Below are positions 5,592 to 22,922 of a stretch of 26,596 bases of DNA, in pieces. The stretch covers positions 1 through 26,596 of IMG/VR virus record IMGVR_UViG_3300050821_009289. One strand, given 5' to 3'. A model generated the notes under the pieces. It did not search any database and was not told the origin of the DNA. It saw nothing but the letters and a program-made list of their open reading frames with translations. The translations under genes and the position numbers were made by a program. The first letter of the stretch is position 1. Each line of letters begins with the position of its first letter. Source of the DNA: a virus.

Positions 5592-6896
5592 TCATGTCGA
5601 TTCAAGCACATCGGCGGGTTCCGGCATCTCTTTCTCAGTAAACGGTATGCCCTGTTTCTCCGCTTCCTCGATTTCGGCAATCAAATCTGCCATCGGTTCG
5701 ATGTGCAAATCCACTGGCTGATCCTTGAGTGCCTCTTGCAGTTCTTTGAGACGGTCAATGACTTCGGTGGGAGTGTCGCCAATGGCCACAGCACAACCAA
5801 TCGCGTCCGGGTCTTGCGATGGTGGGAAATGGTAAGCGCCGTCTTCGTAGGCGCACGCATACAGTTTCACCCATTGCTGAATCTCTTTTGGCACCACAAT
5901 TGATTTCCAGGATTCTCGGTCGCTGGTTGAACTGATGACGGCTTCACCGCAGAATTCACCAGCCCATTCTGGTTGCACCAATTCACCGTGAGCGCCAGCA
6001 GCAACAATCTTTGGGAAGTTGAGCAGCATTTCGAGTTGTTCCTCGCCAGCAGGTGAAGGAGTTCTGAAACAAGGGTCAAGCCAGCGCCCTTCGTCATCAT
6101 CTGGCACTCTCACCTCTGATGAAATGAAGTTTGCGTAACGGCGTTCTTTCAACAGCCATTTTATTGCTTCGGCGCAAGCCCATACCTGCTCGGGCATCTC
6201 ACTGCGTTTTTTGACAACTGCCAAATAGCTTTCGGCCTTGCGTTCGTAGCCAAGAATTACTTCGTCTGGGTATTGGCCCCAAATGTTGTAGCTGTCTGCA
6301 CCACTTTCGATTTTAGTTTCAACTGGTTGCTGAACGTAAAACTTCAATCTCTCTTTCAGTGGTCCCCACTTGGCCGTGTAATAATCAATCTTGTTCTGAA
6401 CGAATTGAATGGTCTTGGCTTGCCAAGTTTCCATGTCACCACGGATGCGACTGATTTTTACGAATGGCTTTTCGTCAATGTGGTCCTTCAAATAGGCGTG
6501 GAGATTGGTCAGCCCACGAACGACTTCGGTTTTCGGAAATGGCAGACCAGACTGTTTGCACACGTCCATCCATTGACCTCGCATTTCCTCAATGGTGCCA
6601 GTTGATTTAGAACCCCAGACTGGATAGCCTTGGCTCTCTAATTCCAATTGCTCTCCGCCGTCCTTGCAATCGGGAAATACGAAAACGTCTATCTCCTTTT
6701 TGAGCGGCCAAAAGTCAGTGGTGAATTCAACATTGTCGTGTCCACTGCCCTTGCACAATTCAGCCAATGTCTCGAAGGACTCTGCATTTGGGCGGTGATA
6801 AATAATGCGCTTGGCTTCACGCGCCAACCGTTCAGCAACGGGAAAGAAGATGCCTCGGTCACTGACGCAAAACGTTGTGTCGGAAATGTCCTTCAC
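5592..6896 (-). CDS. ATP-grasp ligase resembling PurD (GAR synthetase-like)
   Basis: 434 aa from a GTG at 6896, chosen because it overlaps the stop of the zinc-ribbon gene in a GTGA; the frame stays open for ~50 codons further, but that part is the shadow of the zinc-ribbon gene. The layout follows ATP-grasp enzymes: an N-terminal pre-ATP-grasp region (1-100), then SKSTGTIEEMRGQWM (96-110) where PurD has its lid start, PFVKIS (144-149) with a probable ATP-contacting Lys147, a metal-site-like FISSEVRV (257-264) and RWLDPCFRTPSP (271-282). The C-terminal domain resembles that of PurD. Such enzymes ligate a carboxylate to an amine through an acyl phosphate. No other purine gene is present, and the gene lies between portal and capsid genes, so amide-type modification of a virion protein or small molecule is more likely than purine synthesis (inference). 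Confidence 0.75.
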   Translation of the reverse strand: MKDISDTTFCVSDRGIFFPVAERLAREAKRIIYHRPNAESFETLAELCKGSGHDNVEFTTDFWPLKKEIDVFVFPDCKDGGEQLELESQGYPVWGSKSTGTIEEMRGQWMDVCKQSGLPFPKTEVVRGLTNLHAYLKDHIDEKPFVKISRIRGDMETWQAKTIQFVQNKIDYYTAKWGPLKERLKFYVQQPVETKIESGADSYNIWGQYPDEVILGYERKAESYLAVVKKRSEMPEQVWACAEAIKWLLKERRYANFISSEVRVPDDDEGRWLDPCFRTPSPAGEEQLEMLLNFPKIVAAGAHGELVQPEWAGEFCGEAVISSTSDRESWKSIVVPKEIQQWVKLYACAYEDGAYHFPPSQDPDAIGCAVAIGDTPTEVIDRLKELQEALKDQPVDLHIEPMADLIAEIEEAEKQGIPFTEKEMPEPADVLEST

Positions 6897-7123
6897 CTCG
6901 ACACCTCGGCAAAACGTTTCTCGTTCCACATCTTGACTGCATCGGAAAGCGTGTTGGCAATAATCTGGATGCAGCCGTATTTGAAACAGGTGATTTGAAC
7001 TTGTCCGTGACGCTGTTGAACATCTGGATTTCCACCACAACCCGGACACTTCTTAATCTTCATCGCAGTCTGTTTCATCCGGTTCTTCCGTATCATCTTC
7101 GGCGTCACCTTCCGGCATATCAT
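6893..7123 (-). CDS. Lar-like zinc-ribbon protein
   Basis: 76 aa. After a basic leader, residues ~24-70 follow the Lar / restriction-alleviation-like pattern: CPGCGG, a beta strand with ITC, FKYGC, then an A-V-K-M-W-N-E-K helix. Phage Lar of Rac modulates type I restriction, but many phage members of the fold have no known role. The ATG at 7123 overlaps the portal stop (ATGA) and its stop overlaps the GTG of the ATP-grasp gene (GTGA). The ATP-grasp reading could therefore depend on translation of this gene, and the two products may cooperate. Internal Met codons are alternative starts. Confidence 0.7.
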   Translation of the reverse strand: MICRKVTPKMIRKNRMKQTAMKIKKCPGCGGNPDVQQRHGQVQITCFKYGCIQIIANTLSDAVKMWNEKRFAEVSR

Positions 7124-9405
7124 TCATCAAACAGATTTAACCGACTCTTGGAAATTTCAATCGCTGCCTTTTGACCTTCGATCTTCATGTCAAGAGCGTG
7201 TTTCTCTTGGGCTTGGCGTTGCTTTGCCTCAAATTGCAATTGCCTTTCCGCTGTGCGCTGAGCATGACTCTTACTGCGTATCTGTGAATCAGTTTGCGCT
7301 TCGAGCATCTTCGCCTGAATCTTAGCCGCATCTTTCGGATCTAGTCCACCGTTCCCTTGCTCTGCCTTCTGTGCCGCTTGCTGCTGACGTTGAGCCATTC
7401 CCTTCACTTCGTTCGACTCGTTCTTGAGCGCGTCATTCAGTTCTTTGACCAACGCCTTTTGAGTTTTGTCTTGAGCGAGTTGCGCGATGAACGACTGTGT
7501 GTATTGAATGGCACCAGCCAAGCCTTTGACTTCCTGAGGTGTACCAACCCCACCAGATCGCATGATTTCCTGAACCTTGGCCTGAATCAGTTGCAACATG
7601 GTTTGAGAAACTTCAATCGGGTTTAGTCCCGGTCGTGGACGAACCGCACCACCAGCGAGGAAAGTTCCAAACGTCTGTTCGGTATCGTGCATTGAGTCAC
7701 TGACATGCGGAGCCTCGGGATTGAGCGACATGGCCAGCTTCCAATCGCCAGTGATAGCCGCATCGAACTTCCGTTGAATCTCAACTTGCGCCTCGGGGCC
7801 GTGCGCGGCTTTGGTCGCATACAATTCCTTGGCAATAGACACTTCAAGCATCTTATTGCCGCCGCCCATCACGCGATTGATTTGCAAATCCCAACGCTCG
7901 TGATTGAGAGCATCTTCGGGCACACCATCCTTGAGACATTCGACACGGAACTTACGAACGTCAGGGTCTTTGGAATTGGCGATGCAAAAGCGTCGGGCGT
8001 ATTCACGGTAACGAAATAGCTCCCGCGCATACATGCTGTTAATCATGCTGCCCACCAATGACGCCTGACTATTGACTTTGGCCATCGTCCGAGTGGCTGT
8101 CTCGCCGTCGCCGCTTTCTTCGTCGTACTCCTGAGTAAAGGATGCTGACTGGTCAGACATGGTTTGGCGTAGCCGCTCGAATGCACGTTGAACTAACGCC
8201 TCATTCACCTGCCAGCGTTCTTCGGGTCGAACAAACTGCATTCCCTCGGGTAGAAATCCTTTGTCAATAAGGTCCACCTTTTGAAGTCGATCAACATCCT
8301 GTGGATTGTTGATTCGAAAATACTGCATCAACGCTTCAAACACCGAATCAGTGAATCGACAGTTCAAACGATTCTGCAAATGACACACAGCGTAGAGCAG
8401 GAAGCCAAGACTGCGTATGGAGTGATAACGGAAGGGGGCTACGGCGCTAGCGTCACCGAATTGGAAGTGAATGATTTTGTCGAGCTTGTCAGCGTAAACA
8501 CGTTTGCCGCTGTCATAAAGGAACTCGCCTTTAGACCAATCAAAGCGGCGGTTATTGGCATCGGGTTTACTGAATACCCCACCAACTCCTGGTTGTCCCC
8601 AAGCATCCAGAATAATCCTCCGATTCCAACCGCTTTGTTTTCCATCATCGTTCCAAAAATAAAAATCATAACAATCAATGGTAGGCACGGCATCCGATGC
8701 GAATAGTCCTGAGTCTTGCTTTACTCGTTCCTCAAACTTTTCAGGCATCCAATACTCAGGCCAATTTTGACCGAGCAAAGTTCGCGCCTGTTGGTCGGCC
8801 CATTTCAACGCTTGGTCAACAACCGGCATGTTCCACGCAGGATCAACTCTCGGACCCTTGGTCATCTTGTACAATTGGTTGGCCGAATACTGGCGGAAGA
8901 TTGTGAGGAAAGGCAGATTGTCCAACGAGCGCAAGGTGTTCGATGGAACAAGCACATCTTCAATGCCCAACTCCGCTTGCATCCAAAGTTGTTTGTCTTC
9001 CCATGTCGTTGGCCCAACACCATGAAGCACAACCGACGCGCCGGTTCCTTCGCGCAAGTCGAGGAACTTGGCGGAGTTAATCATCGGCTTATTCCATTCC
9101 TTGGTGATCTTCGCACCCCACTGCGCTCGTTTGTGAGCAGGACCGTAATCGAGATTGACTGTCACCAACGGATCGGCGGAAGTCAGGGCGTTCGAAATCT
9201 GGCGGCGTGCCGAATGGTCGAGATTAGTTGCGCTCAAATCGTTGTAATTCGTTGCAATCTTGTTATCCCGCATCTGGTCTGCGGAGTAGGGTGGAGCGCC
9301 ATTGAACAGGGCGTTGATACGTGCGCGATTGTTGGCGCGGGGGAATTCAGCTAAGAGCAATTGATAAATAACCTGCTCACAAGCCGCCGCTGTCGTAAAC
9401 TGCAT
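7120..9405 (-). CDS. Portal protein (head-tail connector)
   Basis: 761 aa, the size of large portals of short-tailed phages. The N-terminal half carries the conserved portal-like pattern: early Arg/Asn-rich helices, an ATNYND motif, alternating alpha/beta segments and aromatic WNDDGK loops. The middle (about 400-480) is a long helix rich in Q/R with SMINSMYARELF. The last ~170 residues are a long Q/K/A/E-rich coiled coil like the barrel of P22-type portals. It forms the dodecameric ring through which DNA is packaged. The ATG at 9405 lies inside the 3' end of the HNH gene (29-nt overlap), with no well-spaced Shine-Dalgarno. Its stop overlaps the next start by 4 nt. Confidence 0.85.
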   Translation of the reverse strand: MQFTTAAACEQVIYQLLLAEFPRANNRARINALFNGAPPYSADQMRDNKIATNYNDLSATNLDHSARRQISNALTSADPLVTVNLDYGPAHKRAQWGAKITKEWNKPMINSAKFLDLREGTGASVVLHGVGPTTWEDKQLWMQAELGIEDVLVPSNTLRSLDNLPFLTIFRQYSANQLYKMTKGPRVDPAWNMPVVDQALKWADQQARTLLGQNWPEYWMPEKFEERVKQDSGLFASDAVPTIDCYDFYFWNDDGKQSGWNRRIILDAWGQPGVGGVFSKPDANNRRFDWSKGEFLYDSGKRVYADKLDKIIHFQFGDASAVAPFRYHSIRSLGFLLYAVCHLQNRLNCRFTDSVFEALMQYFRINNPQDVDRLQKVDLIDKGFLPEGMQFVRPEERWQVNEALVQRAFERLRQTMSDQSASFTQEYDEESGDGETATRTMAKVNSQASLVGSMINSMYARELFRYREYARRFCIANSKDPDVRKFRVECLKDGVPEDALNHERWDLQINRVMGGGNKMLEVSIAKELYATKAAHGPEAQVEIQRKFDAAITGDWKLAMSLNPEAPHVSDSMHDTEQTFGTFLAGGAVRPRPGLNPIEVSQTMLQLIQAKVQEIMRSGGVGTPQEVKGLAGAIQYTQSFIAQLAQDKTQKALVKELNDALKNESNEVKGMAQRQQQAAQKAEQGNGGLDPKDAAKIQAKMLEAQTDSQIRSKSHAQRTAERQLQFEAKQRQAQEKHALDMKIEGQKAAIEISKSRLNLFDE

Positions 9406-9985
9406 TCCCGTGTATCTGGGATTTAACGGGTGTAGTCAAGGCTTTCTCAATTGTCCAACCATCATACAATCTTTTGCAGAGAGTTTTTACCTGAATGTTT
9501 TTTAACTCAGCCCATTGAGTGATTGAACGAGATTCTCCACCAAAAGCAATTATGCTTCCTTTGAAAATTGGTTCCGTCAAAGCCCTTTCGGTGCTCCATC
9601 CATCTCGAATTCGCTTCCCCAATGCTCGTGAAGACATGCCTAATTCTTTCGCCCAATCTTCGACGCACTGAGTTTTCCCGTTCCATGTTAGATTTACATT
9701 TCGACTGTAATTTCGATTTTGTTGTGCTGGCGTCTCCCATCTGCAATTCTCTTTGCAGTAATGACCGCTGCTGTCGATTCGACCAATGGTTAAACCATCC
9801 GCGTAGGTTGGACCCATATCACGTTCAAAATCCGAAAAGCGATCCCACAAAACCTTGATGCCTTTCGCGCCGTAATAATTGAAGCTGATAGCCTTTGGAT
9901 AATTGCAACGCTGCAACATGCTTTGGAAAATCCTGTAAATACGTTTTGGATTTCCCTTGGGATTGAATCCGTGTTTGAAGTTCAC
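9377..9985 (-). CDS. HNH-type homing endonuclease overlapping the portal start
   Basis: 202 aa, same family as the 175-819 protein but without the zinc ribbon. The core has YYGAKGI (37-43), DFERDMG (52-58) and IGRIDSSGHY...ENCRWET (67-85). Two C-terminal units (about 98-139 and 145-187) repeat the pattern W-x(n)-G-K/R-x-L-x-K-R-x-x-D-GW-x-x-E-x-A-L-T-x-P and probably bind DNA. It starts with GTG at 9985, overlapping the VRR-NUC stop (GTGA). The last ~9 codons read through the first codons of the portal gene in another frame, so its C-terminal tail is made of portal sequence. This looks like an insertion immediately in front of an essential gene. Confidence 0.85.
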   Translation of the reverse strand: MNFKHGFNPKGNPKRIYRIFQSMLQRCNYPKAISFNYYGAKGIKVLWDRFSDFERDMGPTYADGLTIGRIDSSGHYCKENCRWETPAQQNRNYSRNVNLTWNGKTQCVEDWAKELGMSSRALGKRIRDGWSTERALTEPIFKGSIIAFGGESRSITQWAELKNIQVKTLCKRLYDGWTIEKALTTPVKSQIHGNAVYDSGGL

Positions 9986-10350
9986 ACAAACAACTTCTCA
10001 AATTCTTGCATCGACCGAATCACATGCACGACATGCCCGTTCTTCTTCGCGTGAGCAATGAACCCTTGTTGGTCAGTTGAAAGCTTGCCGGTCTTTGACT
10101 TTACTTCAACCATCCTCAATTGGGAGCCGTGGGCGAGAATGATGAAATCGGGTTCGCCACGAGTCCGGTGAGTGCGTGTAGCCATTGAACCATGCAAGTA
10201 TTGCCATCCTTTTTCCATACAGTAACAAATGATTTCGTTGTGCAAGGCTGATTCGTCTTGAAAGGGTTCGGCCAAGACTTTTTGAATGTGCTGCGAACTG
10301 TATCGCCTTGCCTCAAAGTCGCGTAACTGTCCGTAGGTCCAATTGGGCAT
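9982..10350 (-). CDS. VRR-NUC domain nuclease
   Basis: 122 aa, the usual length of single-domain phage VRR-NUC proteins. The PD-(D/E)xK-type motifs are visible: ESALHNE (33-39), GEPDF (65-69), VEVK (81-84) and KLSTDQQ (89-95), followed by a beta strand and helix that complete the fold. Relatives include the nuclease domain of FAN1, which acts on branched or flapped DNA; phage members may process packaging or recombination intermediates. The ATG at 10350 lies one nt after the methyltransferase stop. The stop overlaps the GTG of the HNH gene. Confidence 0.88.
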   Translation of the reverse strand: MPNWTYGQLRDFEARRYSSQHIQKVLAEPFQDESALHNEIICYCMEKGWQYLHGSMATRTHRTRGEPDFIILAHGSQLRMVEVKSKTGKLSTDQQGFIAHAKKNGHVVHVIRSMQEFEKLFV

Positions 10351-10351: not shown

Positions 10352-10930
10352 TCACTTTTTCCTCATCACGCAGAGTTCCCTAGAAAAATAGATTGAGTCA
10401 AGTGCGCTATTCGATCCGTGAATAGCTCCAGACAATCTTTCCAGCCATATCTTGGCTTCGTTAGCGGCGTTAAGGTCTTCGATTTCGTAAAACCCGCCAC
10501 GCTTGAGATGTGCCCAAAGGGAATTGAACGTCGTCATTATGTCACTGCTGATATGCGAGCCGTCATCAATGATAATATCAAACTCCAAGTGATGTGTCTT
10601 GGTTAGCTCCTGCCAAAATCCGGGGTCTGACTGATTACCTTGAATGAAAGTATAACGCTCGTGAACGTTTGAGTTGGGAGTGTTCCACGGATTGGTCGAA
10701 TGAACAATGTCCACGCTGTAAACGTGAGCTTTGGGAAAGTATTCAAGCCATGTCCGAACTGATTCCCCGCCCCCGCAACCTATTTCTAGCAGTTCGACTT
10801 CCTTGTCACGCATCGGCTCAAAGAACCGTTCGACGTGCCGAAGGTAATCGTGAGGCTTGGCGTAGGTTCGCGAGAACTGAGAGGCTTTGTCGGTCTGGTG
10901 GGCGGTGCCTATTTCGTCAAGAGATTTCAT
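10352..10930 (-). CDS. Class I SAM methyltransferase, macrocin/mycinamicin O-methyltransferase-like
   Basis: 192 aa from the ATG at 10930, chosen because it overlaps the upstream stop in ATGA; a longer start at 10972 lies inside that gene. Motif I is LLEIGCGGGES (47-57). DEIGTAHQTDK (5-15) and YSVDI (71-75) match the opening seen in MycE/TylF-like sugar O-methyltransferases. DIIIDDGSH (118-126) resembles the metal-binding acidic loop of that group. Such enzymes methylate hydroxyls of sugars, using Mg and SAM. With glycosyltransferase-like genes upstream in the same run, methylation of a glycan is the likeliest job; the acceptor is unknown. Confidence 0.8.
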   Translation of the reverse strand: MKSLDEIGTAHQTDKASQFSRTYAKPHDYLRHVERFFEPMRDKEVELLEIGCGGGESVRTWLEYFPKAHVYSVDIVHSTNPWNTPNSNVHERYTFIQGNQSDPGFWQELTKTHHLEFDIIIDDGSHISSDIMTTFNSLWAHLKRGGFYEIEDLNAANEAKIWLERLSGAIHGSNSALDSIYFSRELCVMRKK

Positions 10931-11118
10931 TTTGAAAGCAGACCTACTTGGGTCTGAAAATCTGCAATGCAATCATCTTCAGTTTTACCGCGTCCAAGAA
11001 TCCCAAGCTTCGATAGTTTGCAGTGCCACCAAGGGCAACCAACTGCCCACGTCCCTGCCATCTTTCCAAACGTCACGGGAAACGCAAACAACTGTTTTTT
11101 GCACGAAGGGCATTTCAT
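10927..11118 (-). CDS. Zinc-ribbon miniprotein (Lar-like)
   Basis: 63 aa from the ATG at 11118, with GGAA a few nt upstream; an in-frame TTG at 11127 is less likely. It begins MKCPSCKK and has GTWAVGCPWWHC about 25 residues later, then a helix ending CIADFQTQ. The two cysteine pairs and length fit a Lar-type zinc ribbon, though the WNxR end of classic Lar proteins is missing. The start shares one base with the preceding stop (TGATG); the stop overlaps the methyltransferase start. Function unknown. Confidence 0.65.
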   Translation of the reverse strand: MKCPSCKKQLFAFPVTFGKMAGTWAVGCPWWHCKLSKLGILGRGKTEDDCIADFQTQVGLLSK

Positions 11119-11225
11119 CAGTTCCAAAAGAATCTATACTGACACTCGTAATAATCCGTTCGCCACGGTTTTTTAACCAGCACTGTGGCGTATCCGTTCA
11201 GCATGCAAACATACATGTGCTTCAC
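11118..11225 (-). CDS. 35-aa peptide coupled to the radical SAM gene
   Basis: A short frame filling the only gap between the radical SAM gene and the zinc-ribbon gene. GTG at 11225 overlaps the radical SAM stop (GTGA); an ATG three codons later is an alternative. Its stop TGA (11120-11118) shares its last base with the next ATG. The peptide has a basic KKPWR centre and an aromatic end (DYYECQYRFFWN) with two cysteines. It is not recognised. Exact fit between neighbours supports translation. It could be a minor protein or a substrate of the enzyme encoded just upstream (speculative). Confidence 0.5.
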   Translation of the reverse strand: MKHMYVCMLNGYATVLVKKPWRTDYYECQYRFFWN

Positions 11226-12307
11226 GGCTCCCACTTCTCCCTGTCAACAAGATGAAAGTACATATTCAATTTCCTGCTCTTACACTCTTTACAAAAGCTG
11301 TGATTCACCCGCTGCTCAATGAACTGTTCTGGCGTCGTATCCAAATAATCCGCGAGCTTCAATCTCCTGTCAGCCGTGCAAGCGCACAGCGAAGTCTGAC
11401 CATCGTGACGGATAAATACAAACATCCCGCCAGCGCCAATCGGACAGACTTTCGACTCTGGAATGTCGGCATACATCTCCCGCGCCTTCGTCGGTGGGAT
11501 TTTCAATCTCTCCATCGCATTGATATAAGTATCACCAGATGGGGGAAGCACCTTATTCCAGTCAGGCTGACCTTCCTGAATTTCGAACGGTGTGACATCG
11601 GGGTCTTTGGAGCGGCAATACTGAATGGCGTTCTCCATTGAAATCGCACGCGCCATGGAGGTAAAGAAACCAAGACCGAGATTCTTAGCATACTCACGCA
11701 TGGGCGCAATCTCATGTTCGTTATCGTTATAGATGTGGTAGTTCACGAGGATTTTAACCCGCTTTTCCTCTGCGATAGCGTTATTGCATTCTGCGAGCGT
11801 CCTCATGTTCTCTTTGACTCGTTCGATATTTCCGCCAGCGTGACCGCGAACGTAAATGTCTTGGGTGAATCCACTGAGAGAGATGATGATGAGGTCCGGT
11901 CGAGCGTTCAGCACTTCAGGCACTCGATTGAGCACGTTGAGGTTGGTGGACATTTCGGGATGCAAACCATAACGATGGATCGCATGAATGCACTCAGGAA
12001 GATTTGGATGCAGAAACGGTTCAGAGTTGCCGTAAAGGAAGACGATTGCATTAGGGTTCTCTGATGCAATCTTTTCAAGAATGGCGTCCATCAGCATCGG
12101 GTCCATGAAACCGCTCTTGTGCTCGTAACGCAGTCCTTCAATCGGACGTTGGTTGCCTTTCGTGCACGTTGGGCAGAACAAATTACATGCGCTATTTATC
12201 TCCAAGAATACCCGCCACGGTTTTAGCTTCACCGTATCAGCACTGATAGCGCCGTCGATAAACGGAATGCAGGAATCGGCGTAGGCTTGTTGGAGGGCGG
12301 GGGTCAT
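11222..12307 (-). CDS. Radical SAM enzyme with SPASM-like C-terminal cluster domain
   Basis: 361 aa. CNLFCPTC (41-48) is the CxxxCxxC motif holding the SAM-binding 4Fe-4S cluster; LYGNSEPFLHP further on matches the glycine-rich SAM site. The C-terminal region has C288, C308, C310, C339 and C342 in a SPASM-like order (CxxG...DGxxxxCxC...CxxC), implying at least one auxiliary cluster. SPASM enzymes often modify peptides, and others act in sugar or cofactor chemistry. It sits between a glycosyltransferase-like gene (ATGA overlap) and a 35-aa peptide gene (GTGA overlap). Its lengthy N-terminus before the cluster motif is normal for the family. The substrate is unknown. Confidence 0.88.
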   Translation of the reverse strand: MTPALQQAYADSCIPFIDGAISADTVKLKPWRVFLEINSACNLFCPTCTKGNQRPIEGLRYEHKSGFMDPMLMDAILEKIASENPNAIVFLYGNSEPFLHPNLPECIHAIHRYGLHPEMSTNLNVLNRVPEVLNARPDLIIISLSGFTQDIYVRGHAGGNIERVKENMRTLAECNNAIAEEKRVKILVNYHIYNDNEHEIAPMREYAKNLGLGFFTSMARAISMENAIQYCRSKDPDVTPFEIQEGQPDWNKVLPPSGDTYINAMERLKIPPTKAREMYADIPESKVCPIGAGGMFVFIRHDGQTSLCACTADRRLKLADYLDTTPEQFIEQRVNHSFCKECKSRKLNMYFHLVDREKWEP

Positions 12308-12987
12308 GTTGCAATTGGCCCCGCATAACGGTTGCTCACAATTGGCACTCGTGGACCATTCCCAAGATGCACTTCTGCCTCAAATCGACTATCCACAGAA
12401 TCAATCCCAGAATCCTTGATGCGTTGCCGCGTCATCACACTTGGAATCGTTCTAAAGAAGGACGCTCTCACCCAAAAGAAGGTGCCTGCAAAATAATGCT
12501 GAGAGTGGTCCCACCCTTGCCCGGTCAACCAGTGGCATCCTGCCGCTTCTTTAATCTCAAGGTCACGCACGCAGAAACGCCACTTCTTAACACACTCGTG
12601 CATCATACGATTTCTCCACGGCGTAGACATGGTTTGGGCGTAAGAAGAATCAGGATCGTGACTCACGCCCTTACTATGGAAACTCAATATATAAGCCTCG
12701 GGTTTGAAATTGCGGCACCAGTCTTCAATCATCAGCAATGTGCGAAGTTCGTTGCGACATTGCAAACCGTGATAGGTGACAATCGCTTTTGAAGGTATGA
12801 ATGCTTGAACAAACTGTTCACTCTCTTTTCCTCCGTTGACGCCAACGCGGAATTCGTCGCAGGCGTCAAGGACTCCGCTGTTTTTGAGAGTCGTCATCTG
12901 GTCGTGGACAATGCGAGGCGCGGCGGGTAACACTTTGTCTCCGATTTGAAAGAGGCAGTGGTAGAAAATAATGATGGGTGGCGTCAT
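12304..12987 (-). CDS. Glycosyltransferase-like protein
   Basis: 227 aa from the ATG at 12987, picked because it overlaps the upstream stop (ATGA); a TTG at 12999 is less likely. It contains YILSFHSKGVSH, then PWRNRMMHE, then a Trp/Cys-rich part and HYFAGTFFWVRASFF. These resemble sugar-processing GT-A-like proteins in which an H-x-K-G loop and the G-x-F-W strand surround the donor site. No clear DxD motif is visible, so donor and metal use are uncertain. It lies directly upstream of the radical SAM gene and downstream of a second GT-like gene of identical predicted length. Confidence 0.62.
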   Translation of the reverse strand: MTPPIIIFYHCLFQIGDKVLPAAPRIVHDQMTTLKNSGVLDACDEFRVGVNGGKESEQFVQAFIPSKAIVTYHGLQCRNELRTLLMIEDWCRNFKPEAYILSFHSKGVSHDPDSSYAQTMSTPWRNRMMHECVKKWRFCVRDLEIKEAAGCHWLTGQGWDHSQHYFAGTFFWVRASFFRTIPSVMTRQRIKDSGIDSVDSRFEAEVHLGNGPRVPIVSNRYAGPIAT

Positions 12988-13667
12988 GGATGTGGCCAAT
13001 AGGCACCACTTGTAAGACGATCCCCCACAAGCAGATTATGTTGAGTGCCCTGATGAAACCCGCCAGCCATTGAATCGCACTGACTCAACGGCAACACGCA
13101 ATCCCACCCCACGATGTAAGCAGGCTTGCTTTGTGACAGCGCATAGCTCGTCAACCCATCCACGCCATGTTCGAATGGATAACGCTGGCTGTTATCACTC
13201 ACCCTTAACGGATGCTCATTAACTAGCCTTGGATTGCACCAGAACCCCGTTGTGCGAACGTGCGGCCACACATTGAAACGAGTGTCGCCTTGATTACCCG
13301 TACAACCGTACAAGCCATCACCGTAGCATTTGTAAACGCTGACCATTCGGCGCAACCATCCTGGACGGCGAAAATAACTACTACCGCCAAAGAACACCAT
13401 CAGATCGCATTCAACTTTGGCGGCAGCAAACTGATACGAACCAATGTCCATGCCAACATTGGCGCGTTGCAGGAACATCGTGCCTGAGATGTTCGAGAAC
13501 TGTTCAATGGCTCTGGCGTCAGGGTGACCACCATTACTGACAACAATCATGTGATGGTCGCACAGCGGTGGGTTGGAGCAATAGGTGGTCACGAAGCGTT
13601 CAGCGTAATCGGCGTGCTCTGGTCCGAAGTTTGGAGTGGGATAGTTATAGACCGTGCAAATCCTCAT
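12984..13667 (-). CDS. GT-A-like glycosyltransferase
   Basis: 227 aa from the ATG at 13667, which overlaps the stop of the 33-aa peptide gene (ATGA); the longer GTG start at 13712 lies within that gene. It opens MRICTVYNYPTP, then HMIVVSNGG, NVGMDIGSYQFAA, a hydrophobic strand with LMVFFGGSSYF, and GCTGNQGD with RTTGFWCN. The nucleotide-binding strand, acidic loop and glycine-rich acceptor loop are those of GT-A fold proteins found in polysaccharide clusters. A single-Asp donor site is possible. Acceptor and sugar unknown. Confidence 0.65.
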   Translation of the reverse strand: MRICTVYNYPTPNFGPEHADYAERFVTTYCSNPPLCDHHMIVVSNGGHPDARAIEQFSNISGTMFLQRANVGMDIGSYQFAAAKVECDLMVFFGGSSYFRRPGWLRRMVSVYKCYGDGLYGCTGNQGDTRFNVWPHVRTTGFWCNPRLVNEHPLRVSDNSQRYPFEHGVDGLTSYALSQSKPAYIVGWDCVLPLSQCDSMAGGFHQGTQHNLLVGDRLTSGAYWPHP

Positions 13668-13765
13668 TCCCCACCGTCCCACCAGCTTAGGAACCAAGCC
13701 AATGCCAGCCACGCAATCAGCACGAGTTGCTTGAAGACACCGCGTTCTTCGTATTCGTCGTTCAT
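13664..13765 (-). CDS. 33-aa single-span membrane peptide
   Basis: A previously hidden small frame. An acidic N-terminus (NDEYEE) is followed by one Trp/Leu/Ala-rich membrane span (about residues 11-29) and a short DGGE tail. Both ends overlap neighbours by ATGA: start on the stop of the 49-aa gene, stop on the start of the glycosyltransferase-like gene. That double coupling is the main support. It may anchor a neighbour product at the membrane or affect the membrane late in infection; a holin-like role is only a guess. Confidence 0.62.
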   Translation of the reverse strand: MNDEYEERGVFKQLVLIAWLALAWFLSWWDGGE

Positions 13766-13911
13766 CTGAGCAGTATACACTTGTTTACTTCGTCGCCGGT
13801 AACACTGCAAACCTGATCGTGGCATTCTTGGTCATCTAACCACAAAACGGTTTGGTCTCCCACCTCTGTGATTGCTCGTTCGAGTTCTTTGATAAGTTCA
13901 GTTGCTGTCAT
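13762..13911 (-). CDS. 49-aa small protein, function unknown
   Basis: A short frame from ATG 13911 (overlapping the upstream stop, ATGA) to TGA 13762 (overlapping the start of the 33-aa peptide, ATGA). It begins with an amphipathic helix (TATELIKELERAI) followed by a strand with VLWLDD and a C-terminal half with three cysteines. This fills the apparent gap between two longer genes exactly. It resembles small phage proteins of the MTVNELIEELE type, whose function is unknown. Confidence 0.66.
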   Translation of the reverse strand: MTATELIKELERAITEVGDQTVLWLDDQECHDQVCSVTGDEVNKCILLR

Positions 13912-14198
13912 GGCTGGTTTCGAGTTTGATTGTGATAACCGTCAGTCGTGTCGGTGAGCGTGTCGGCCAAAGTAACAGGTTCGAACTCGTCTGAATCAGT
14001 CACGTAAAATGTTTCATTACAAAACCGGCAAGAAAAATGTGACCCTTCGTTGTAGTAACCGTATCGGTTACACTTCGGGCACTCGATGACCATAATATCA
14101 TTCGCACTCCTGCCATCTTTGAGTGCTTCGCACACCATTGGGTCTTTCCAAATATCGTTTGGAAGTTCTTGACCGCAACTTTCACATTCTTCGTTCAT
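13908..14198 (-). CDS. Multi-CxxC zinc-finger protein
   Basis: 96 aa from the ATG at 14198 (ATGA overlap with the upstream stop). CESC (5-8), CPKC (40-43) and CRFC (57-60), plus C23, suggest two small zinc-binding units. The acidic, Thr-rich C-terminal tail is probably unstructured. Likely binds nucleic acid or protein; no specific family recognised. Confidence 0.7.
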   Translation of the reverse strand: MNEECESCGQELPNDIWKDPMVCEALKDGRSANDIMVIECPKCNRYGYYNEGSHFSCRFCNETFYVTDSDEFEPVTLADTLTDTTDGYHNQTRNQP

Positions 14199-14380
14199 AA
14201 TCCTCGCGCTTCGATAAACCAATCTGGAAGCTTCACGTCATGCTCGTCACCGCGTTTGGTGGTGTGTTCTATGACGGATTTGGGTATCCAAATTTCATTA
14301 CCTGTTCGATGAATGTCCTTCGGGTCTGTAGTTGAATACAAACGCGCATTTTCAGTTTCACGCAATAGCCAAAATCTCAC
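14195..14380 (-). CDS. 61-aa small protein, function unknown
   Basis: 61 aa starting with GTG at 14380, overlapping the upstream stop (GTGA). The composition is soluble, with a beta-type ARLYSTTD start, GNEIWIPKSVIE in the middle and an LPDWFIEARGL end. Similar short proteins with an IWIPKSVI segment occur in many phages without assigned function. It ends in an ATGA overlap with the zinc-finger gene. Confidence 0.68.
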   Translation of the reverse strand: MRFWLLRETENARLYSTTDPKDIHRTGNEIWIPKSVIEHTTKRGDEHDVKLPDWFIEARGL

Positions 14381-14574
14381 GGTTTTTGCGCTCCAATCTT
14401 CGCAAGTATCTGCCTGCCGATTTTAGAGTTGATGGGGACTTCTGTGTAGCCCCACGACTGAACAAGAGCCTGAGCTTGAAAAAAATCCTTCGTTGGCTTT
14501 GCTCCATACCCAAGATGATTGTATGGAACATACCGTTCAAACACTCTGTCGTAGAGAATGATGTAAGGTGTCAT
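14377..14574 (-). CDS. 65-aa small protein, function unknown
   Basis: 65 aa from the ATG at 14574 (ATGA overlap with the stop of the large fusion gene). Aromatic-rich first half (YIILYDRVFERYVPYN) and a basic helical end. No motif recognised. Stop overlaps the GTG of the next gene. Confidence 0.68.
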   Translation of the reverse strand: MTPYIILYDRVFERYVPYNHLGYGAKPTKDFFQAQALVQSWGYTEVPINSKIGRQILAKIGAQKP

Positions 14575-15932
14575 GCTTTCAATTCTTCCGGCACTCCATA
14601 AATCGCACCCTCTCTAACGATTTCACAGTTAGAATTTTTAGGCCAACACTCAACAATCACCTTTTTGTAAAGACCATGAGCTATGGCCAAGGCCAACGAT
14701 TGGTTTCCGCAAAACAGTTTACAACCTGCTATGACCCTCGCCAACTCCAAAGCATCCTTCGTTGGTCGATAATCAAACTTGCAATGCGGCGCGAATCCAC
14801 AGAACACTTCATATTCTTGAGGCGTGCCAACAAATGTCATCTGCCGGTGAAATTTCTCAATGAAGCGAGTCCAGGGGAAGTCCCAATTTTGATAACGCGC
14901 GGTGCGGTTCACCACAATCGGTGTAGTTACAATCGGGTCATTGACTCTCAGCCATGGCTCCGTTGGAAGTGGCAAATGGAAAGCGTCCATGTGGAGCTTC
15001 AGTATTGAATCGAAGTCACGCGCACTGCGCCGTCCCCAAGGGATGCGGAATCGGTTTAAGTCGCAATCAGTGCTGAACGGAGTGCCGTGGGTATAGCGGC
15101 AACTGACAACATAATCCTGAGCCTCAATTAGTGGTCGAAGATTATCTACCGTGTCAGCTTCGCCGCCCATGCGCTGCCAGCGGCTTGCGAGTGGATATGG
15201 AAATTTATTGTCAGGAGAGACGAATAGCGCCCCACCCCCAAGGGCTTTCATCCCTGCTAGACCGTAAATGCAATCTCCTTGGTCGAGAGAATGATGGAAT
15301 ACCTTGAATGGCTTTTTGTCTGGAGGAAGCACACTCAACAGGCTGTGAAACCCAAACTGCCCGCGCCATTGATTGGGCACTCCCTGCCACTCCTTGGTAT
15401 TCCACGAGCGCCCCTCGAAAGAAAATTGCCTAGCCAATTCTGGCGGCATGAAATTCATGCCTTGAGCTTCGAGTTCTTTTCGAAAGCGAACTGAGATGCA
15501 CGAGTCCTCGGGATGGTCTTGACCTATTGGAAGTTTCGAGCAAGCTTCAAGCAGTCGTTTGGATCTCCAACTAAAGCCGCCGTTGCCGACAGTATTAGTC
15601 GGTTGAAACGGAGCGCCACCGAAATCGTAGTTGTAAAATTGATCGGTCCAAGCACTTCCATTAAGGACGAATCCATCAGCCTGAACGAGAAGGCAATACT
15701 TCGTATCAACATAACGGTGAAGGTCACGAATGCAGAATTTTGAATAGGCTTCCAATCCATTGAGTGGTGGGATTTTAACCGTGTAATGGGTTGGAATTGG
15801 TTTGTCGGTGAGCAGCTTGACGGACTGCACTTCAATTTCACACAACGACCGTTCGATAGCTTTCAACGCCAAGTGAACCTTGGGGGTTGTATCAATGGCA
15901 ACGAGTGTCGTATGGAAAAGGATAGTCTTCAT
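14571..15932 (-). CDS. DUF5672 domain fused to a GT-B/GT9-like glycosyltransferase domain
   Basis: 453 aa, two domains. Residues 1-~210 match DUF5672: LVQADGFVLN where the family has a YDG-type acidic loop, FGGAPF, VGNGGFSWRS and HPEDSCIS, ending LARQFSFEG. This domain is found in predicted glycosyltransferases of polysaccharide clusters. Residues ~245-453 resemble the C-terminal half of heptosyltransferase-like GT-B proteins: IVVNRTARYQN, MTFVGTPQEYEVF, ELARVIAGCKLFCGNQS and LAIAHGLYK form a nucleotide-sugar pocket. The fusion would add two linked sugars, or one domain may bind and one transfer. ATGA overlaps join it to both neighbours. Of the GT-like genes here it is the surest. Confidence 0.82.
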   Translation of the reverse strand: MKTILFHTTLVAIDTTPKVHLALKAIERSLCEIEVQSVKLLTDKPIPTHYTVKIPPLNGLEAYSKFCIRDLHRYVDTKYCLLVQADGFVLNGSAWTDQFYNYDFGGAPFQPTNTVGNGGFSWRSKRLLEACSKLPIGQDHPEDSCISVRFRKELEAQGMNFMPPELARQFSFEGRSWNTKEWQGVPNQWRGQFGFHSLLSVLPPDKKPFKVFHHSLDQGDCIYGLAGMKALGGGALFVSPDNKFPYPLASRWQRMGGEADTVDNLRPLIEAQDYVVSCRYTHGTPFSTDCDLNRFRIPWGRRSARDFDSILKLHMDAFHLPLPTEPWLRVNDPIVTTPIVVNRTARYQNWDFPWTRFIEKFHRQMTFVGTPQEYEVFCGFAPHCKFDYRPTKDALELARVIAGCKLFCGNQSLALAIAHGLYKKVIVECWPKNSNCEIVREGAIYGVPEELKA

Positions 15933-16521: not shown

Positions 16522-16619
16522 CGTTTTTCCCAAGGCCATTTTTCAGTTACAAGCGTGCAAATTACGAAAGCACCACAAATAATCCCGACGCATAACGCAA
16601 TTGAATCTGGCCAACTCAT
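16518..16619 (-). CDS. 33-aa single-span membrane peptide
   Basis: A short frame with ATG 16619 overlapping the upstream stop and TGA 16518 overlapping the next ATG, both as ATGA. One hydrophobic span covers about residues 6-24 (SIALCVGIICGAFVICTLV), followed by a basic, Trp-containing tail (EKWPWEKR), so the N-terminus is probably outside. Same length as the membrane peptide at 13664 but not similar in sequence. Possible small lysis or membrane-associated peptide; unproven. Confidence 0.62.
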   Translation of the reverse strand: MSWPDSIALCVGIICGAFVICTLVTEKWPWEKR

Positions 16620-17308
16620 TTCGCTTCCTCCAAAATCCAACAACTCGGATGCAACTGCGCCTTAATGTCTTCGCTCATATGCTTGACAATGAATGGCAGT
16701 GGGAACCACGTCTTGAGCCTCAACGGGCAGAGGCATGCAGAACAAATGTTCAACAACGCATCCTTGCTCGTCTTCAACCCGCGCTTTTCCTTCACCTCAA
16801 TCTGTTTCCGAATGCGTTCAGCAGCAGGGATGGTAAAGAACCTGCTCAAATCCCCGCGCTCGTTTAATGGACACGACACACACACCGCTGCGCGTTTCTC
16901 AGCCAACTCCTGCGAGACTGGCGATTCTCCGCTGTCCATGAAATCGGTGATAGTTTCAGCCCCGACACTAACCGCTTTTACCGCCGCAACAAGCCGATGC
17001 GAGAGATTGGGTGCCGGGGCTTGATGAAAAGACGGTGCTGGATCTGCCATGACGTAGCTTTCAGCCCCCGGAAGTGCGGCAACGCGAGTGGCGTTCACTG
17101 AGTTGACTTCGTTTTGGATGGCTGTGAGGTCCGTATTGAGCTTGAACTTTGGATTTGAAAGTCTGTGCTTTTGAAGTTCCTGACACAGCAGCTTGAAATC
17201 CCAAACGCTAGCAGGAACCACGGACCAATTTTGCCACCCGGTAAGAGCCTGCCGATACAAGAAGCCCCCCGGCGGGCATTGTGTTGTTGATTTAAGTTTG
17301 TAACCCAT
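16616..17308 (-). CDS. Cys-cluster protein of unknown function
   Basis: 230 aa. The N-terminal third has CPPGGFLYRQALTGW (11-25), then KHRLSNPKFKLNTD (47-60), a pattern seen in uncharacterised proteins of environmental phages. A Pro/Ala linker covers 80-102. The C-terminal part has CVSCP (143-147), C189-x-x-C192-x-C194 and C223, likely a metal site (zinc or Fe-S). ATG 17308 follows the 52-aa gene stop by 2 nt. I do not recognise the function. Linkage to the radical SAM and GT genes raises the possibility of a redox or partner role. Confidence 0.72.
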   Translation of the reverse strand: MGYKLKSTTQCPPGGFLYRQALTGWQNWSVVPASVWDFKLLCQELQKHRLSNPKFKLNTDLTAIQNEVNSVNATRVAALPGAESYVMADPAPSFHQAPAPNLSHRLVAAVKAVSVGAETITDFMDSGESPVSQELAEKRAAVCVSCPLNERGDLSRFFTIPAAERIRKQIEVKEKRGLKTSKDALLNICSACLCPLRLKTWFPLPFIVKHMSEDIKAQLHPSCWILEEAK

Positions 17309-17548: not shown

Positions 17549-17686
17549 ATGGCAAAATCTGTCAAACACATTCGCATCACAGTTCCAAAGGATATTCACA
17601 GCAAATTAAAAGGCCAAGCTGCTTTCTGCGGCAACACGTTGGCTGAATGGATTGTGAAGATCCTCAAGACTGCGGCCTACAAATGA
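17549..17686 (+). CDS. Ribbon-helix-helix (Arc/CopG-like) regulator
   Basis: 45 aa, a typical minimal RHH length. The basic strand HIRITVPKDIHSKLK gives the DNA-reading beta ribbon; GNTLAEWIVKILKTAA is the second helix with the usual hydrophobic pattern. Such proteins form dimers that bind short repeats. It lies next to repeats in 17501-17527 and so may repress both divergent operons (inference). Start ATG 17549; its stop overlaps the ATG of the methyltransferase (ATGA), so the two are co-translated. Confidence 0.7.
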   Translation: MAKSVKHIRITVPKDIHSKLKGQAAFCGNTLAEWIVKILKTAAYK

Positions 17687-18180
17687 ATAGCGTCCACTAT
17701 AGCAGCAACAAAGACGAGTGGGAGACACCTCCTGAGATTTTCGATCCGCTGGATGCGGAGTTTGATTTTGATTTGGACCCTTGTGCCGATGCTCGAAACA
17801 GAAAATGTCAGTTATACTTGAGTAAAGAAACCGACGGTCTGTCACAAGATTGGAGTGAGTGTGTTTCAAAATCTGGATGGAGTTCTGCCTTCATAAATCC
17901 GCCTTTCAGCACACTAAAATCGTGGATTGAAAAGTGCGCCAAAGAATCCAAGAAAGGCATGACCTGCGTAATGCTCATTCCCTCTCGCACTGACACTCGC
18001 GCTTGGCACACTTACATCTACGACGCAAAGCTGTGGAGATTTAGACCGGGTGTTGAAGTGCGATTCCTTCCGGGAAGGGTAACATTTTGGGAGAACGGCA
18101 AACCGGCAGTATCAAAGAAAACGGGGAAACCGCAATGTGCTCCGTTCCCATCGTGCATCGTGATTTTCAGACCAACATAA
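17683..18180 (+). CDS. Phage DNA N6-adenine methyltransferase (Dam-type, PF05869-like)
   Basis: 165 aa, the normal size of this phage family. DEWETPPEIFD (11-21), LDPCAD (31-36) and NPPF (72-75) are visible. NPPF is the catalytic (D/N)PP(Y/F) motif; LDPCA lines the SAM site; MLIPSRTDT (97-105) and PGRVTFW (130-136) complete the pattern. It methylates adenine N6 in DNA, probably shielding the phage from restriction. The start at 17683 is chosen from the 4-nt overlap; the frame is open further upstream. Co-transcribed with the RHH regulator. Confidence 0.9.
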   Translation: MNSVHYSSNKDEWETPPEIFDPLDAEFDFDLDPCADARNRKCQLYLSKETDGLSQDWSECVSKSGWSSAFINPPFSTLKSWIEKCAKESKKGMTCVMLIPSRTDTRAWHTYIYDAKLWRFRPGVEVRFLPGRVTFWENGKPAVSKKTGKPQCAPFPSCIVIFRPT

Positions 18181-19466: not shown

Positions 19467-19617
19467 GGTAAAGTGCAAGCATAATGACACTCGAATGACA
19501 CGAACCGCACCTCCAGATCCAAACACTATGATGATGCGAAAGATGGAATGGTGTGGGGAGTGCGGAAAGTTATTAGACGACCGGGAGTGGAGAGTTCCAC
19601 TTGTGGAGGACGATTAG
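19441..19617 (+). CDS. 58-aa zinc-finger-like protein
   Basis: Short frame from ATG 19441 (or 19456) to TAG 19617. It contains CKH near residue 12 and CGECGK near 40, a possible four-ligand metal site, and a Met-rich middle. It runs into the terminase 3' end, sharing the TTAG at 19614-19617, with both stops overlapping. Not recognised; probably real given the codon frame and tight junction. Confidence 0.55.
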   Translation: MQQDEMWIEVKCKHNDTRMTRTAPPDPNTMMMRKMEWCGECGKLLDDREWRVPLVEDD

Positions 19618-21398
19618 GAATAGTTCAACTCGTACGACTCGCGAAGCTTCCGAGACTTCTCGATCAAGTCAGTAATCCATTCGTGGTTTGAGTCATCTTC
19701 CTCGGTGTTCACCATCTTCTTGATTTGAAAACCACGCCGCCGTGCGCCTTCAAGCACAATCGCCGCCCAATCGTAAAGGTCGGGGCTTTGGCCTGTGCGT
19801 TCCTTCATCTTGATTTTTGATTCCACCTCTATTTTGTTGCTAGAAACCTCCTGCCACTCGCGCATACAACCATCGTCAATCACATCCTCGGTCAATCCGC
19901 GCACTTGACCGGCGACAATTGCATAGCGCGTTGACCACCACAGTTCAGTTACGAACTTTGAGTAATGCTCCTTGCAGGTCTTGAGCCGCCTCACGCCATT
20001 ACGGTCCATTATGTAATGGTCCATCGTCACAGGCCGGTCACTTGGACTGCCTCCAAACTCAACGGGATTGATATTGGCGCTCCAAACGCGAGCGAGTGAC
20101 GGCCCAAGAGAACCACGACCCGTAGAATCGTAAAACATGTTCTCTGCCGATATGCCGTTGCTCTGACAAAAGTTCCTGACCCATTCAGCGATTTGGTCCT
20201 CGGGTAACTTCGGAAGGTTTATCACAATTGGAATTATGACCGGCTTCCAGTATTTCAAAATCGTAGTGCCGGTTGTGTCTCGTCCAAACTCACCATAGCC
20301 GCCCACACAGCGATCACCACCTGCGCCACCGTAGGCGGCGTCCAATCCAAATATCTTCACTCTCGGACTTCCATCCCAAATCACATCTTCGAGAGCATGG
20401 TTCTGTTTGCACAGTTGAAAACTGATAACGCGCTTGGCGTTCAACCCACTCTTGCGAACGCCCAATGCCTGAGAATAATATTGGTGTGAGTCCTTCCCGT
20501 AACCAGCGATTACGCGCTCAATGCTGTCTTGATTTAGCATCCCTGGATATTTGTCAGCGCAACCTTCATCGAAAGTCGGACTATCCAAACCGTAGAGACA
20601 AATCGTTCGACTATTTAGGAAACGGCGATTCTTCCAAACAGCGGTCTTCGTCGGCTCGGGCATGGACTCCCAACCACACTCAGGCTCGGAGAGCTTATCG
20701 AGTGGATCATTCTGACCGATGGGATTGCCGTCGAAGATTCCTTTGTAATCGCCGCTGTTCATATTTCCGATAGACTCAAGCATTCCCGGCCCCATGAACT
20801 GCATTTCATTTCCGAGGTGGCGACGGCGCTTCTGCTTGATGCCAACGTAAGGCGCTATCGACTGAAACTCACCAGTGGCGCTCTTACAAGCAACGCAGAG
20901 CAGGCCCTTACGCATCTCACGAATTGATGCGTCGTCATCAAGGTCATCGGTCATTATCGCTTTCTTGGCGTCGAGGACGTTGCCAGCAAGCCATGGATAC
21001 TTGGTGCGTGCCTGACGAAAGAGCATTTTAATATCACCCCAAATGCGAGTTTCGATTGCAACGAGAGTTGTTGATGAAATCAGGATGAGTGTGTTGTCTG
21101 GAAACGCCCAATAGTCGGTGAGTGCATATTTGGAAATCGATCTCGTCTTGCCCGTGTCCTTCGGCCCTGTGACAATCGTGATGGTGTTATTGAGAATTTC
21201 AGTAAGAATCAAATCCGTCCAACGATTTTCATATTCGGTTGGCCAAAGAAGTTTCTCCGCTTCGCGGTAGTGAAAGAACAAACCGTTGCCCACGTCTTTT
21301 CCTTTGTGCTTGAACCTACCCCCATGCTGTATCATGTGGAACTCAATTACCAATGGGTCAGTTTCATCCGGCCATTCGGTTCCATAACGCTCAAACAT
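19614..21398 (-). CDS. Terminase large subunit
   Basis: 594 aa. Walker A is GPKDTGKT (78-85), a terminase variant; NTLILISST (102-110) is the following strand, and E198 in LGNEMQF may act as the catalytic carboxylate. The nuclease half has FGLDAAYGGAGGDR (350-363) with D353 and D362, FYDSTG (422-427) with D424, and SPDLYDW near 545-551, the usual RNase H-like acidic triad. It pumps DNA through the portal and cuts it. It lies about 10 kb from the portal gene, separated by the plus-strand island and the modification cassette. It is on the portal's strand but converges with the island; no small terminase was found. Confidence 0.93.
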   Translation of the reverse strand: MFERYGTEWPDETDPLVIEFHMIQHGGRFKHKGKDVGNGLFFHYREAEKLLWPTEYENRWTDLILTEILNNTITIVTGPKDTGKTRSISKYALTDYWAFPDNTLILISSTTLVAIETRIWGDIKMLFRQARTKYPWLAGNVLDAKKAIMTDDLDDDASIREMRKGLLCVACKSATGEFQSIAPYVGIKQKRRRHLGNEMQFMGPGMLESIGNMNSGDYKGIFDGNPIGQNDPLDKLSEPECGWESMPEPTKTAVWKNRRFLNSRTICLYGLDSPTFDEGCADKYPGMLNQDSIERVIAGYGKDSHQYYSQALGVRKSGLNAKRVISFQLCKQNHALEDVIWDGSPRVKIFGLDAAYGGAGGDRCVGGYGEFGRDTTGTTILKYWKPVIIPIVINLPKLPEDQIAEWVRNFCQSNGISAENMFYDSTGRGSLGPSLARVWSANINPVEFGGSPSDRPVTMDHYIMDRNGVRRLKTCKEHYSKFVTELWWSTRYAIVAGQVRGLTEDVIDDGCMREWQEVSSNKIEVESKIKMKERTGQSPDLYDWAAIVLEGARRRGFQIKKMVNTEEDDSNHEWITDLIEKSRKLRESYELNYS

Positions 21399-22325: not shown

Positions 22326-22922
22326 ATGGTTGGTTACGTAAATAAATCGGTGTTTCCAACATCTCTAACACCGAAACAAAATACGTGCGGAGTTTATGGA
22401 ATAATAAGCAATGCTGACGGCAGGATTTACGTTGGTGGTTCTGCTGACTTAGGCAGGAGATTTTCCACTCACAAATACGACCTATCAAAACGAGAGCACT
22501 GCAACCCGCATCTTCAAAGACTCCACGACGAGAATCCATCATCGTTGGAGTTTTTTGTAATCGAAGAAGTTCAAGACAACTCTCAGCTTCGAAATCGAGA
22601 ACAGTTTTGGATGGATTTTTACAAATCGTACCTGATTGAAAATGGTTTTAACACAAATCCAAAATCAGACTCTTCGAAAGGGTATAAGCACCAACCAGAG
22701 ACGTTAGCCAAGTCAAGTCTTACAAGAATTAAAAACGGAAGGCGAGACAACCGTGCCGTGATACAAATGGATTTTCAAGGGAATGAAATAGCAAAGTTCA
22801 AATCCATTACGGAGGCAGCCAACAGTATTGGAATTGTGGAAAGTTGCGTTCGCAGATGCTGTAATGGAGAGCGAAATCATTCAGGTGGTTTTAAGTGGAA
22901 ATATGCCGACTCCACAAAGTAG
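22326..22922 (+). CDS. GIY-YIG homing endonuclease with NUMOD domain
   Basis: 198 aa. The nuclease shows CGVYGI (21-26), IYVGGS (34-39), GRRF (43-46) with the catalytic Arg, H49 and E92 in REQFW, as in I-TevI/Seg-type enzymes. A linker leads to a NUMOD-type DNA-binding module (143-195): AVIQMDFQGNEIAKFKSI, then helices and GGFKWKY. It is free-standing: no group I intron core is seen. Its last 20 nt overlap the start of the tail gene. It is A+T-richer than its neighbours. It probably spreads by cutting fibre/tail DNA of related phages. Confidence 0.93.
   Translation: MVGYVNKSVFPTSLTPKQNTCGVYGIISNADGRIYVGGSADLGRRFSTHKYDLSKREHCNPHLQRLHDENPSSLEFFVIEEVQDNSQLRNREQFWMDFYKSYLIENGFNTNPKSDSSKGYKHQPETLAKSSLTRIKNGRRDNRAVIQMDFQGNEIAKFKSITEAANSIGIVESCVRRCCNGERNHSGGFKWKYADSTK

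Follow-up and report, generated by a model that had tools for sequence, protein, structure and literature searches.

The window analysed here is the whole of IMG/VR record IMGVR_UViG_3300050821_009289, a 26,596-base (26.6 kb) fragment of an uncultured phage. Five large open reading frames (ORFs) occupy the minus strand at positions 10352-15932, where an initial annotation of the window had placed them. They encode a DUF5672 protein, two glycosyltransferase-like proteins designated GT4 and GT3, a radical SAM enzyme and a methyltransferase. We read them as a modular rare-sugar glycosylation cassette that is used late in infection and most likely acts on a virion protein, with a probability of about 0.55. 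The glycan reading as such is strongly supported, a peptide product is unlikely, and the virion is favoured as the acceptor. From the gene content, enzyme families, gene order, variation and exchange between phages that were observed, we infer the substrates, the radical SAM reaction and the virion acceptor.

Gene order and content of the slot

The terminase-like and portal-like proteins of the window had no tblastn match at E 1e-3 among 50,697 phage records, so the lineage is without an annotated relative in that collection. The names portal, terL, scaffold and capsid are used as labels based on size, order and conservation; no profile gives those names. A search with the radical SAM protein first brought four contigs, all with the order terL ... 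GT4-GT3-radical SAM-methyltransferase ... portal-like. An alignment search with the radical SAM enzyme generated 26 loci, mostly on 48-58 kb contigs of the window's lineage, and alignment searches with GT3 and the DUF5672 protein brought additional contigs. Gene order is kept in >20 other contigs, far beyond chance. The initial annotation had staked the cassette on its genes occurring together elsewhere. The GT4-GT3-radical SAM-methyltransferase core does recur, in order, across the phage lineage, and a C-methyltransferase-radical SAM-GT4 run is found beyond it in an unrelated phage.

Slot content was counted in 30 relatives whose contigs show the whole region between the terL/230-amino-acid (aa) protein end and the portal-like gene. 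GT4 was present in 28/30, GT3 in 27/30, the radical SAM gene in 19/30 and the methyltransferase gene in 18/30. Seventeen slots have a C-methyltransferase gene, five an RmlD-like gene and two a GT9-GT2 fusion. With only 7/30 loci carrying it, the DUF5672 gene is an optional part of the cassette. Near-duplicate loci are included (e.g. L024/L027 and L077/L086), and the counts refer to contigs, not independent events. The exact five-gene set occurs in only four contigs, the window, L009, L010 and L029, while two relatives have only DUF5672 and other sugar-type genes in the slot. Because gene content differs among the 30 fully visible slots, the slot is a mosaic glycan locus, and the window's version is one state of it.

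Such variable content, together with the HNH and VRR-NUC genes interspersed in the cassette and the swapping of the radical SAM gene between relatives, might suggest loose host-derived cargo genes with no joint product. This is very improbable, as the order GT4-GT3-radical SAM-(methyltransferase)-(C-methyltransferase) is kept, even across portals that are only about 35% identical, and the cluster-binding cysteines are invariant.

Several relatives carry further genes in the slot. Two DNA methyltransferase genes (PF00145, PF01555) are inserted within the cassette around a GT4 copy and GT3 in L014:4247-6848. The window's closest relative has an extra 320-aa protein with a methyltransferase domain between GT3 and the radical SAM enzyme (L010:6959-7993, the same as L003:9031-9993). 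HNH and AP2-HNH genes are also dispersed within relatives' cassettes. The slot of L135, which has DUF5672 only, holds two ORFs that we take, by motif recognition, to be GroES-like (10411-10734) and RfaE/HldE-type cytidylyltransferase-like (10686-11246).

The minus-strand order in the window is the DUF5672 gene, four small ORFs, GT4, GT3, radical SAM, a 66-aa ORF, methyltransferase, VRR-NUC, HNH and portal-like (Table 1). The initial annotation had described genes all joined by 4-nucleotide (nt) overlaps or tiny linking genes and running straight into the portal gene. Small ORFs and two 4-nt overlaps (DUF5672/14377 ORF and GT3/radical SAM) were indeed found, but GT4 and GT3 overlap by 16 nt, and a 94-nt gap as well as the 66-aa ORF lies between the radical SAM and methyltransferase genes. 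VRR-NUC and HNH genes intervene before the portal-like gene. The 230-aa protein that adjoins the cassette in almost all relatives has a CPPGGF N-terminus and a Cys-rich C-terminus.

Table 1. Features of the cassette and its borders in the window
Feature	Positions	Strand	Basis
DUF5672 protein, 453 aa; N-terminal DUF5672 domain and C-terminal domain of ~250 aa, fold unproven	14571..15932	-	PF18922 2e-13, residues 57-176
Four small linking ORFs (14377-14574, 14195-14380, 13908-14222, 13762-13911)	13762..14574	-	family-wide conservation absent
GT4, predicted GT-A glycosyltransferase; likely start ATG 13667, 227 aa	12984..13712	-	AlphaFold2 and Foldseek
GT3, putative glycosyltransferase of the GT-A-like/nucleotide-diphospho-sugar transferase superfamily, 231 aa	12304..12999	-	weak fold matches
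Predicted Twitch-domain radical SAM enzyme, 361 aa	11222..12307	-	PF04055 3e-7
66-aa ORF with Cys residues, located between the radical SAM and methyltransferase genes	10927..11127	-	no homologue beside other radical SAM genes
Predicted MycE/TylE-type sugar O-methyltransferase, about 192-206 aa	10352..10972	-	profile match MycE 2.5e-26
VRR-NUC nuclease and HNH endonuclease genes that separate the cassette from the portal-like gene	9377..10350	-	PF08774 1e-7; phrog_3377 3e-53
Portal-like protein, 761 aa, downstream border of slot	7120..9405	-	size and position kept in lineage; no profile name
230-aa Cys-rich protein that bounds the slot upstream in almost every relative	16616..17308	-	conservation

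The terminase-like gene lies at 19614-21398 in the window, and contigs of this undescribed lineage reach about 58 kb. HNH genes, a Dam-type methyltransferase gene and a GIY-YIG homing-endonuclease-like gene are located at 175-819, 9377-9985, 17647-18180 and 22326-22922. A protein of 430-485 aa, kept in about 9 contigs, is encoded downstream of the portal-like gene (window 5592-7049), with the start codon of the window copy probably further downstream. This protein is at most possibly ATP-grasp-like, as its similarity to PurD is weak.

Predicted enzymes of the cassette

The initial annotation recognised a sugar-O-methyltransferase-like enzyme, and the profile matches agree. In addition to MycE (3ssm), the methyltransferase matched demethylmacrocin O-methyltransferase, TylE (8ia9, 3.4e-22). 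The IDDG.H motif, corresponding to the family's IDDGSH active-site region, is invariant in 14 homologues. The enzyme is therefore classified, at the level of sequence, as a MycE/TylE-type sugar O-methyltransferase with a predicted sugar acceptor.

A C-methyltransferase gene (PF08421 zinc-binding, PF13489 methyltransferase and PF08484 C-methyltransferase domains) occurs in 14/26 radical SAM loci, downstream of the radical SAM gene and directly after the O-methyltransferase gene where that exists. Over its full length the L029 copy matched TylC3, D-mycarose 3-C-methyltransferase, at 2.2e-77 and TcaB9 at 9e-53. RmlD-type reductases were identified in 4/26 radical SAM loci and an RmlB/GDP-mannose-dehydratase-type dehydratase in one (L013). 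The presence of C-methyltransferase, RmlD-like and RmlB-like genes therefore identifies, by family membership, a predicted toolkit for a deoxythymidine diphosphate (dTDP)-6-deoxysugar in the relatives. No phage system with a deoxysugar C-methyltransferase came up in a literature search.

The radical SAM enzyme had been called SPASM-type. The seven-Cys SPASM motif is CX9-15GX4C-gap-CX2CX5CX3C-gap-C (PMC6231123). In 22 aligned homologues the CX3CX2C motif of the core (Cys 41/45/48) is invariant, and CX12-14GX4C...X30...CX2C is present in 22/22 (CX14GX4C in the window copy), while CX5CX3C and the last Cys of the SPASM motif are absent in 22/22. Because the first four SPASM-motif cysteines are kept and the remainder are absent in all 22, the enzyme is assigned to the Twitch (truncated SPASM) class with one predicted auxiliary cluster and not to the SPASM class. 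BtrN and MoaA are examples of Twitch enzymes (PMC9012708). BtrN-type Twitch dehydrogenases share with it CX3CX2C and one auxiliary motif, CX9-15GX4C...CX2C, and the BtrN substrate is carbohydrate-like.

All PDB matches of the radical SAM enzyme are weak: DesII (7e-5, the top match, over part of the radical SAM core only), anSME (2e-4), GDGT-MAS (3e-4), BtrN (1e-3, over about 65 residues only) and BlsE (0.06). The DesII equivalog score is 24.9 against a cut-off of 450, and the top NCBIfam entry, a tungsten-cofactor maturase, falls far under its own cut-off. These partial matches do not amount to full-length, subfamily-specific similarity to DesII or BtrN, and place the enzyme in neither subfamily. 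We propose that it is a sugar-modifying oxidoreductase, epimerase or lyase. A distant homologue on another viral contig (L033:1513-2589, 29-36% identity) keeps exactly the four Twitch cysteines, and no sugar genes were recognised near it.

The initial annotation had left virions, a host polymer or a small peptide as possible targets. The peptide would be a small phage product matured by the radical SAM enzyme, in the manner of ribosomally synthesized and post-translationally modified peptides (RiPPs), and decorated by the remaining enzymes. Small ORFs are present in the cassette, and the sactisynthase SkfB is among the Twitch radical SAM enzymes (PMC6231123). However, the core starts by residue ~31, and the approximately 30 residues before it leave no room for an N-terminal RiPP recognition element (RRE) domain. 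Nor does a conserved precursor ORF accompany the radical SAM genes across the family. Recurring matches are mostly shadow ORFs in close relatives, the majority of them lying within the C-methyltransferase gene, and the neighbouring genes encode sugar enzymes. A peptide product is thus most improbable, whereas a glycan is well supported.

Two GT-A-like proteins of equal length had also been noted. For GT4 this was borne out. Its AlphaFold2 model has a predicted local distance difference test (pLDDT) score of 92, and Foldseek against the PDB returned as best matches the GT-A enzymes WrtF fucosyltransferase (4e-8) and SpsA (2e-7) with template-modelling (TM) scores of about 0.55. GT4 homologues match PF00535 at 1e-4 and also RgpF. 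We are confident in a predicted GT-A fold for GT4, which had no match in annotated phages. The GT3 model (pLDDT 89) has weaker PDB matches, to nucleotidyltransferases (cytidylyltransferases) and heparosan synthase (E 2e-5, TM 0.4-0.5), and none of 19 members had a glycosyltransferase match in Pfam. GT3 is thus GT-A-like at the superfamily level only, and since its PDB matches are weaker, a putative glycosyltransferase role leans on fold superfamily and context. That context includes unrelated marine phages in which GT3 homologues adjoin a C-methyltransferase and a MycE-like methyltransferase. Homology between GT3 and GT4 was not significant by hhalign. The equal lengths are incidental, because the two proteins are not detectably homologous and GT4 probably starts at the later ATG.

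The DUF5672-GT-B fusion of the initial annotation stands in its first half. The DUF5672 domain assignment is certain from the profile match (50.6 bits against a gathering cut-off of 24.4). A nucleotide-pattern search with the single DUF5672 protein came back empty; the alignment-based search later gave 59 loci, and full-length homologues are found in about 16 contigs. The C-terminal half had no match in Pfam, PDB or phage records. A GT-B assignment was sought by way of GT9-like relatives: motif positions are in common by eye, but hhalign gave 1% and BLAST was likewise insignificant. The GT-B half therefore stays unconfirmed.

Exchange between phages and the likely acceptor

Identity between the window and L009 is 86% for the radical SAM enzyme, 62% for the portal and 49% for terL. 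The radical SAM tree groups the window with L009 and the portal tree groups it with L010, with support of 99 or more each. In G015 (L025/L026) C-methyltransferase, radical SAM and GT4 genes lie in one run, and the window lineage's terL, portal and capsid are undetectable. Because identities differ by gene, the trees conflict and this run occurs in an unrelated phage, we conclude from the sequence comparison that the glycan module is exchanged between phages.

A second group of about 20 marine contigs (L090-L128) has a sugar cassette next to what we take to be portal and DUF2213/major-capsid-type genes. This conserved run holds three glycosyltransferase-like genes along with genes for a C-methyltransferase, a GT3 homologue and a MycE-like methyltransferase (e.g. 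L094:2196-7181 and L121:2172-7163); in contigs seen in full it lies between the portal gene and the capsid-type genes. The terL, portal and capsid profiles of the window's lineage had no match in this group. Sugar cassettes among the head genes of two unrelated groups therefore favour a head or virion acceptor, although late expression alone could explain the position.

In the scheme that we favour, the cassette would occupy a slot within the phage head/packaging gene run and draw a nucleotide-activated sugar from the host. The RmlB-like, C-methyltransferase and RmlD-like steps encoded by several relatives would yield a dTDP-6-deoxysugar. Transfer would be carried out by one or two GT-A glycosyltransferases (GT4, GT3), plus the DUF5672 protein in some phages. 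The Twitch radical SAM enzyme may oxidise, epimerise or deoxygenate the sugar, and the MycE-type enzyme would O-methylate it, probably as a cap. The late product, made without membrane parts, would most likely be joined to a structural protein of the phage while still in the cytoplasm, and the virion coat would then differ among relatives through gene swapping. A more specific version has a little under even odds: a mobile and so far undescribed phage pathway in which the Twitch enzyme makes a rare sugar for subsequent methylation and display on the capsid, present in the lineage and, in related form, at the same place of the head run in unrelated phages.

The same glycan chemistry could instead yield a product that is put on O-antigen, capsule or flagellin at the host surface, where it would exclude other phages or alter receptors. 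The sole radical SAM homologue found in cellular genome contigs (27% identity, fused to a methyltransferase) sits in an island of glycosyltransferases and more methyltransferases beside flagellar genes, presumably of fliG/fliF/fliE type; this neighbourhood also fits the glycan reading as such. A GT3 homologue in cyanophage S-SRM01 is near a sulfotransferase, a nucleotide-sugar epimerase and a tail fibre gene. Against this, two unrelated phage groups have the slot inside their head-gene run, and membrane glycosyltransferases, flippases and other membrane proteins are missing from the cassette. No transmembrane segments were predicted in the cassette proteins, and classical membrane-type O-antigen conversion is therefore disfavoured. 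We regard a host-surface product as possible but rather unlikely. The scan of genome contigs that gave this single distant cellular homologue found no provirus of the window's lineage, and no tRNA genes were found in the search for a host.

Phage DNA glycosyltransferases are well known, and Dam-type and other DNA methyltransferases are present in the lineage, so glycosylation of a modified base for restriction evasion was also considered. In two nearly full-length relatives, 35 further proteins lacking any other annotation were searched with Pfam, which identified RecT, helicases, nucleases, a transposase and similar proteins, and no base-hydroxylating or base-modifying enzyme. The cassette's glycosyltransferases had no match to known DNA glycosyltransferase families in profile searches, and MycE- and TylC3-type methyltransferases act on sugars. 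DNA hypermodification is accordingly quite improbable.

Several points weigh against a virion glycan. A late-operon position is compatible with any late function, and that the virion is the acceptor we infer from gene position and from precedent. The DNA-modification screen spanned the unannotated proteins of two relatives only. No C-methyltransferase, RmlB or RmlD was found among the genes annotated in the 26.6 kb window, itself a fragment. Matches between the radical SAM enzyme and sugar enzymes are weak, and anSME and, in NCBIfam, a tungsten-cofactor maturase appear alongside them. Finally, pelagimyophage glycosyltransferases and radical SAM genes have been read as acting on the host surface (PMC7029224).

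Relation to known glycosylation systems

Virus-encoded glycosylation is already known; here it involves a radical SAM enzyme of the Twitch class and a slot whose genes can be swapped. The mycobacteriophages Che8, Corndog and Myrna glycosylate capsid and tail-tube proteins by phage-encoded glycosyltransferases (PMC12363180, citing Freeman et al. 2023). As described there, one or a few glycosyltransferases are involved, whereas the window has a multi-enzyme run with radical SAM and O-methyltransferase genes and, in relatives, C-methyltransferase genes.

The fibril pathways of the giant Megavirinae resemble the cassette in rare deoxysugar synthesis, MycE-type O-methylation, glycosyltransferases and clade-specific composition (PMC10117803). 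Mimivirus R132, a MycE-like methyltransferase, is a candidate for methylation of virion-fibril sugars in the same source. These are viruses of eukaryotes with measured chemistry, whereas the chemistry of the window cassette is predicted; the cassette also has a radical SAM enzyme, which the available text of PMC10117803 does not report for Megavirinae.

Glycosyltransferase and radical SAM cassettes share one variable region in the host-recognition cluster of pelagimyophages, where the glycosyltransferases were taken to modify the O-antigen of the host (PMC7029224). That cluster sits with tail fibres, and the available text reports no conserved glycosyltransferase-glycosyltransferase-radical SAM-methyltransferase order. 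With the pelagimyophages and the Mimivirus enzyme as precedents, the claim that such combinations were wholly undescribed is too strong. No described case of a radical SAM enzyme in a comparable phage glycan gene set was found in the literature. MycE, TylE and TylC3, from the same families as the methyltransferase and the relatives' C-methyltransferase, tailor macrolide deoxysugars in bacterial antibiotic pathways, as does DesII, the weak top PDB match of the radical SAM enzyme; here the setting is a phage.

Few cases of virion glycosylation by phages are known, and the gene sets behind them are simple. Here an entire lineage maintains, next to its head genes, a dedicated glycan slot that is often reshuffled; an unrelated group parallels this at the same place. 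The cassette also provides a new radical SAM enzyme that probably acts on a sugar and whose partner genes are accessible. Should the product sit on the virion, one could test whether phages vary their surface sugars to alter adsorption or escape recognition. If a rare sugar is indeed displayed on the capsid, phages would have a general strategy of varying their virion glycans through the exchange of cassettes.

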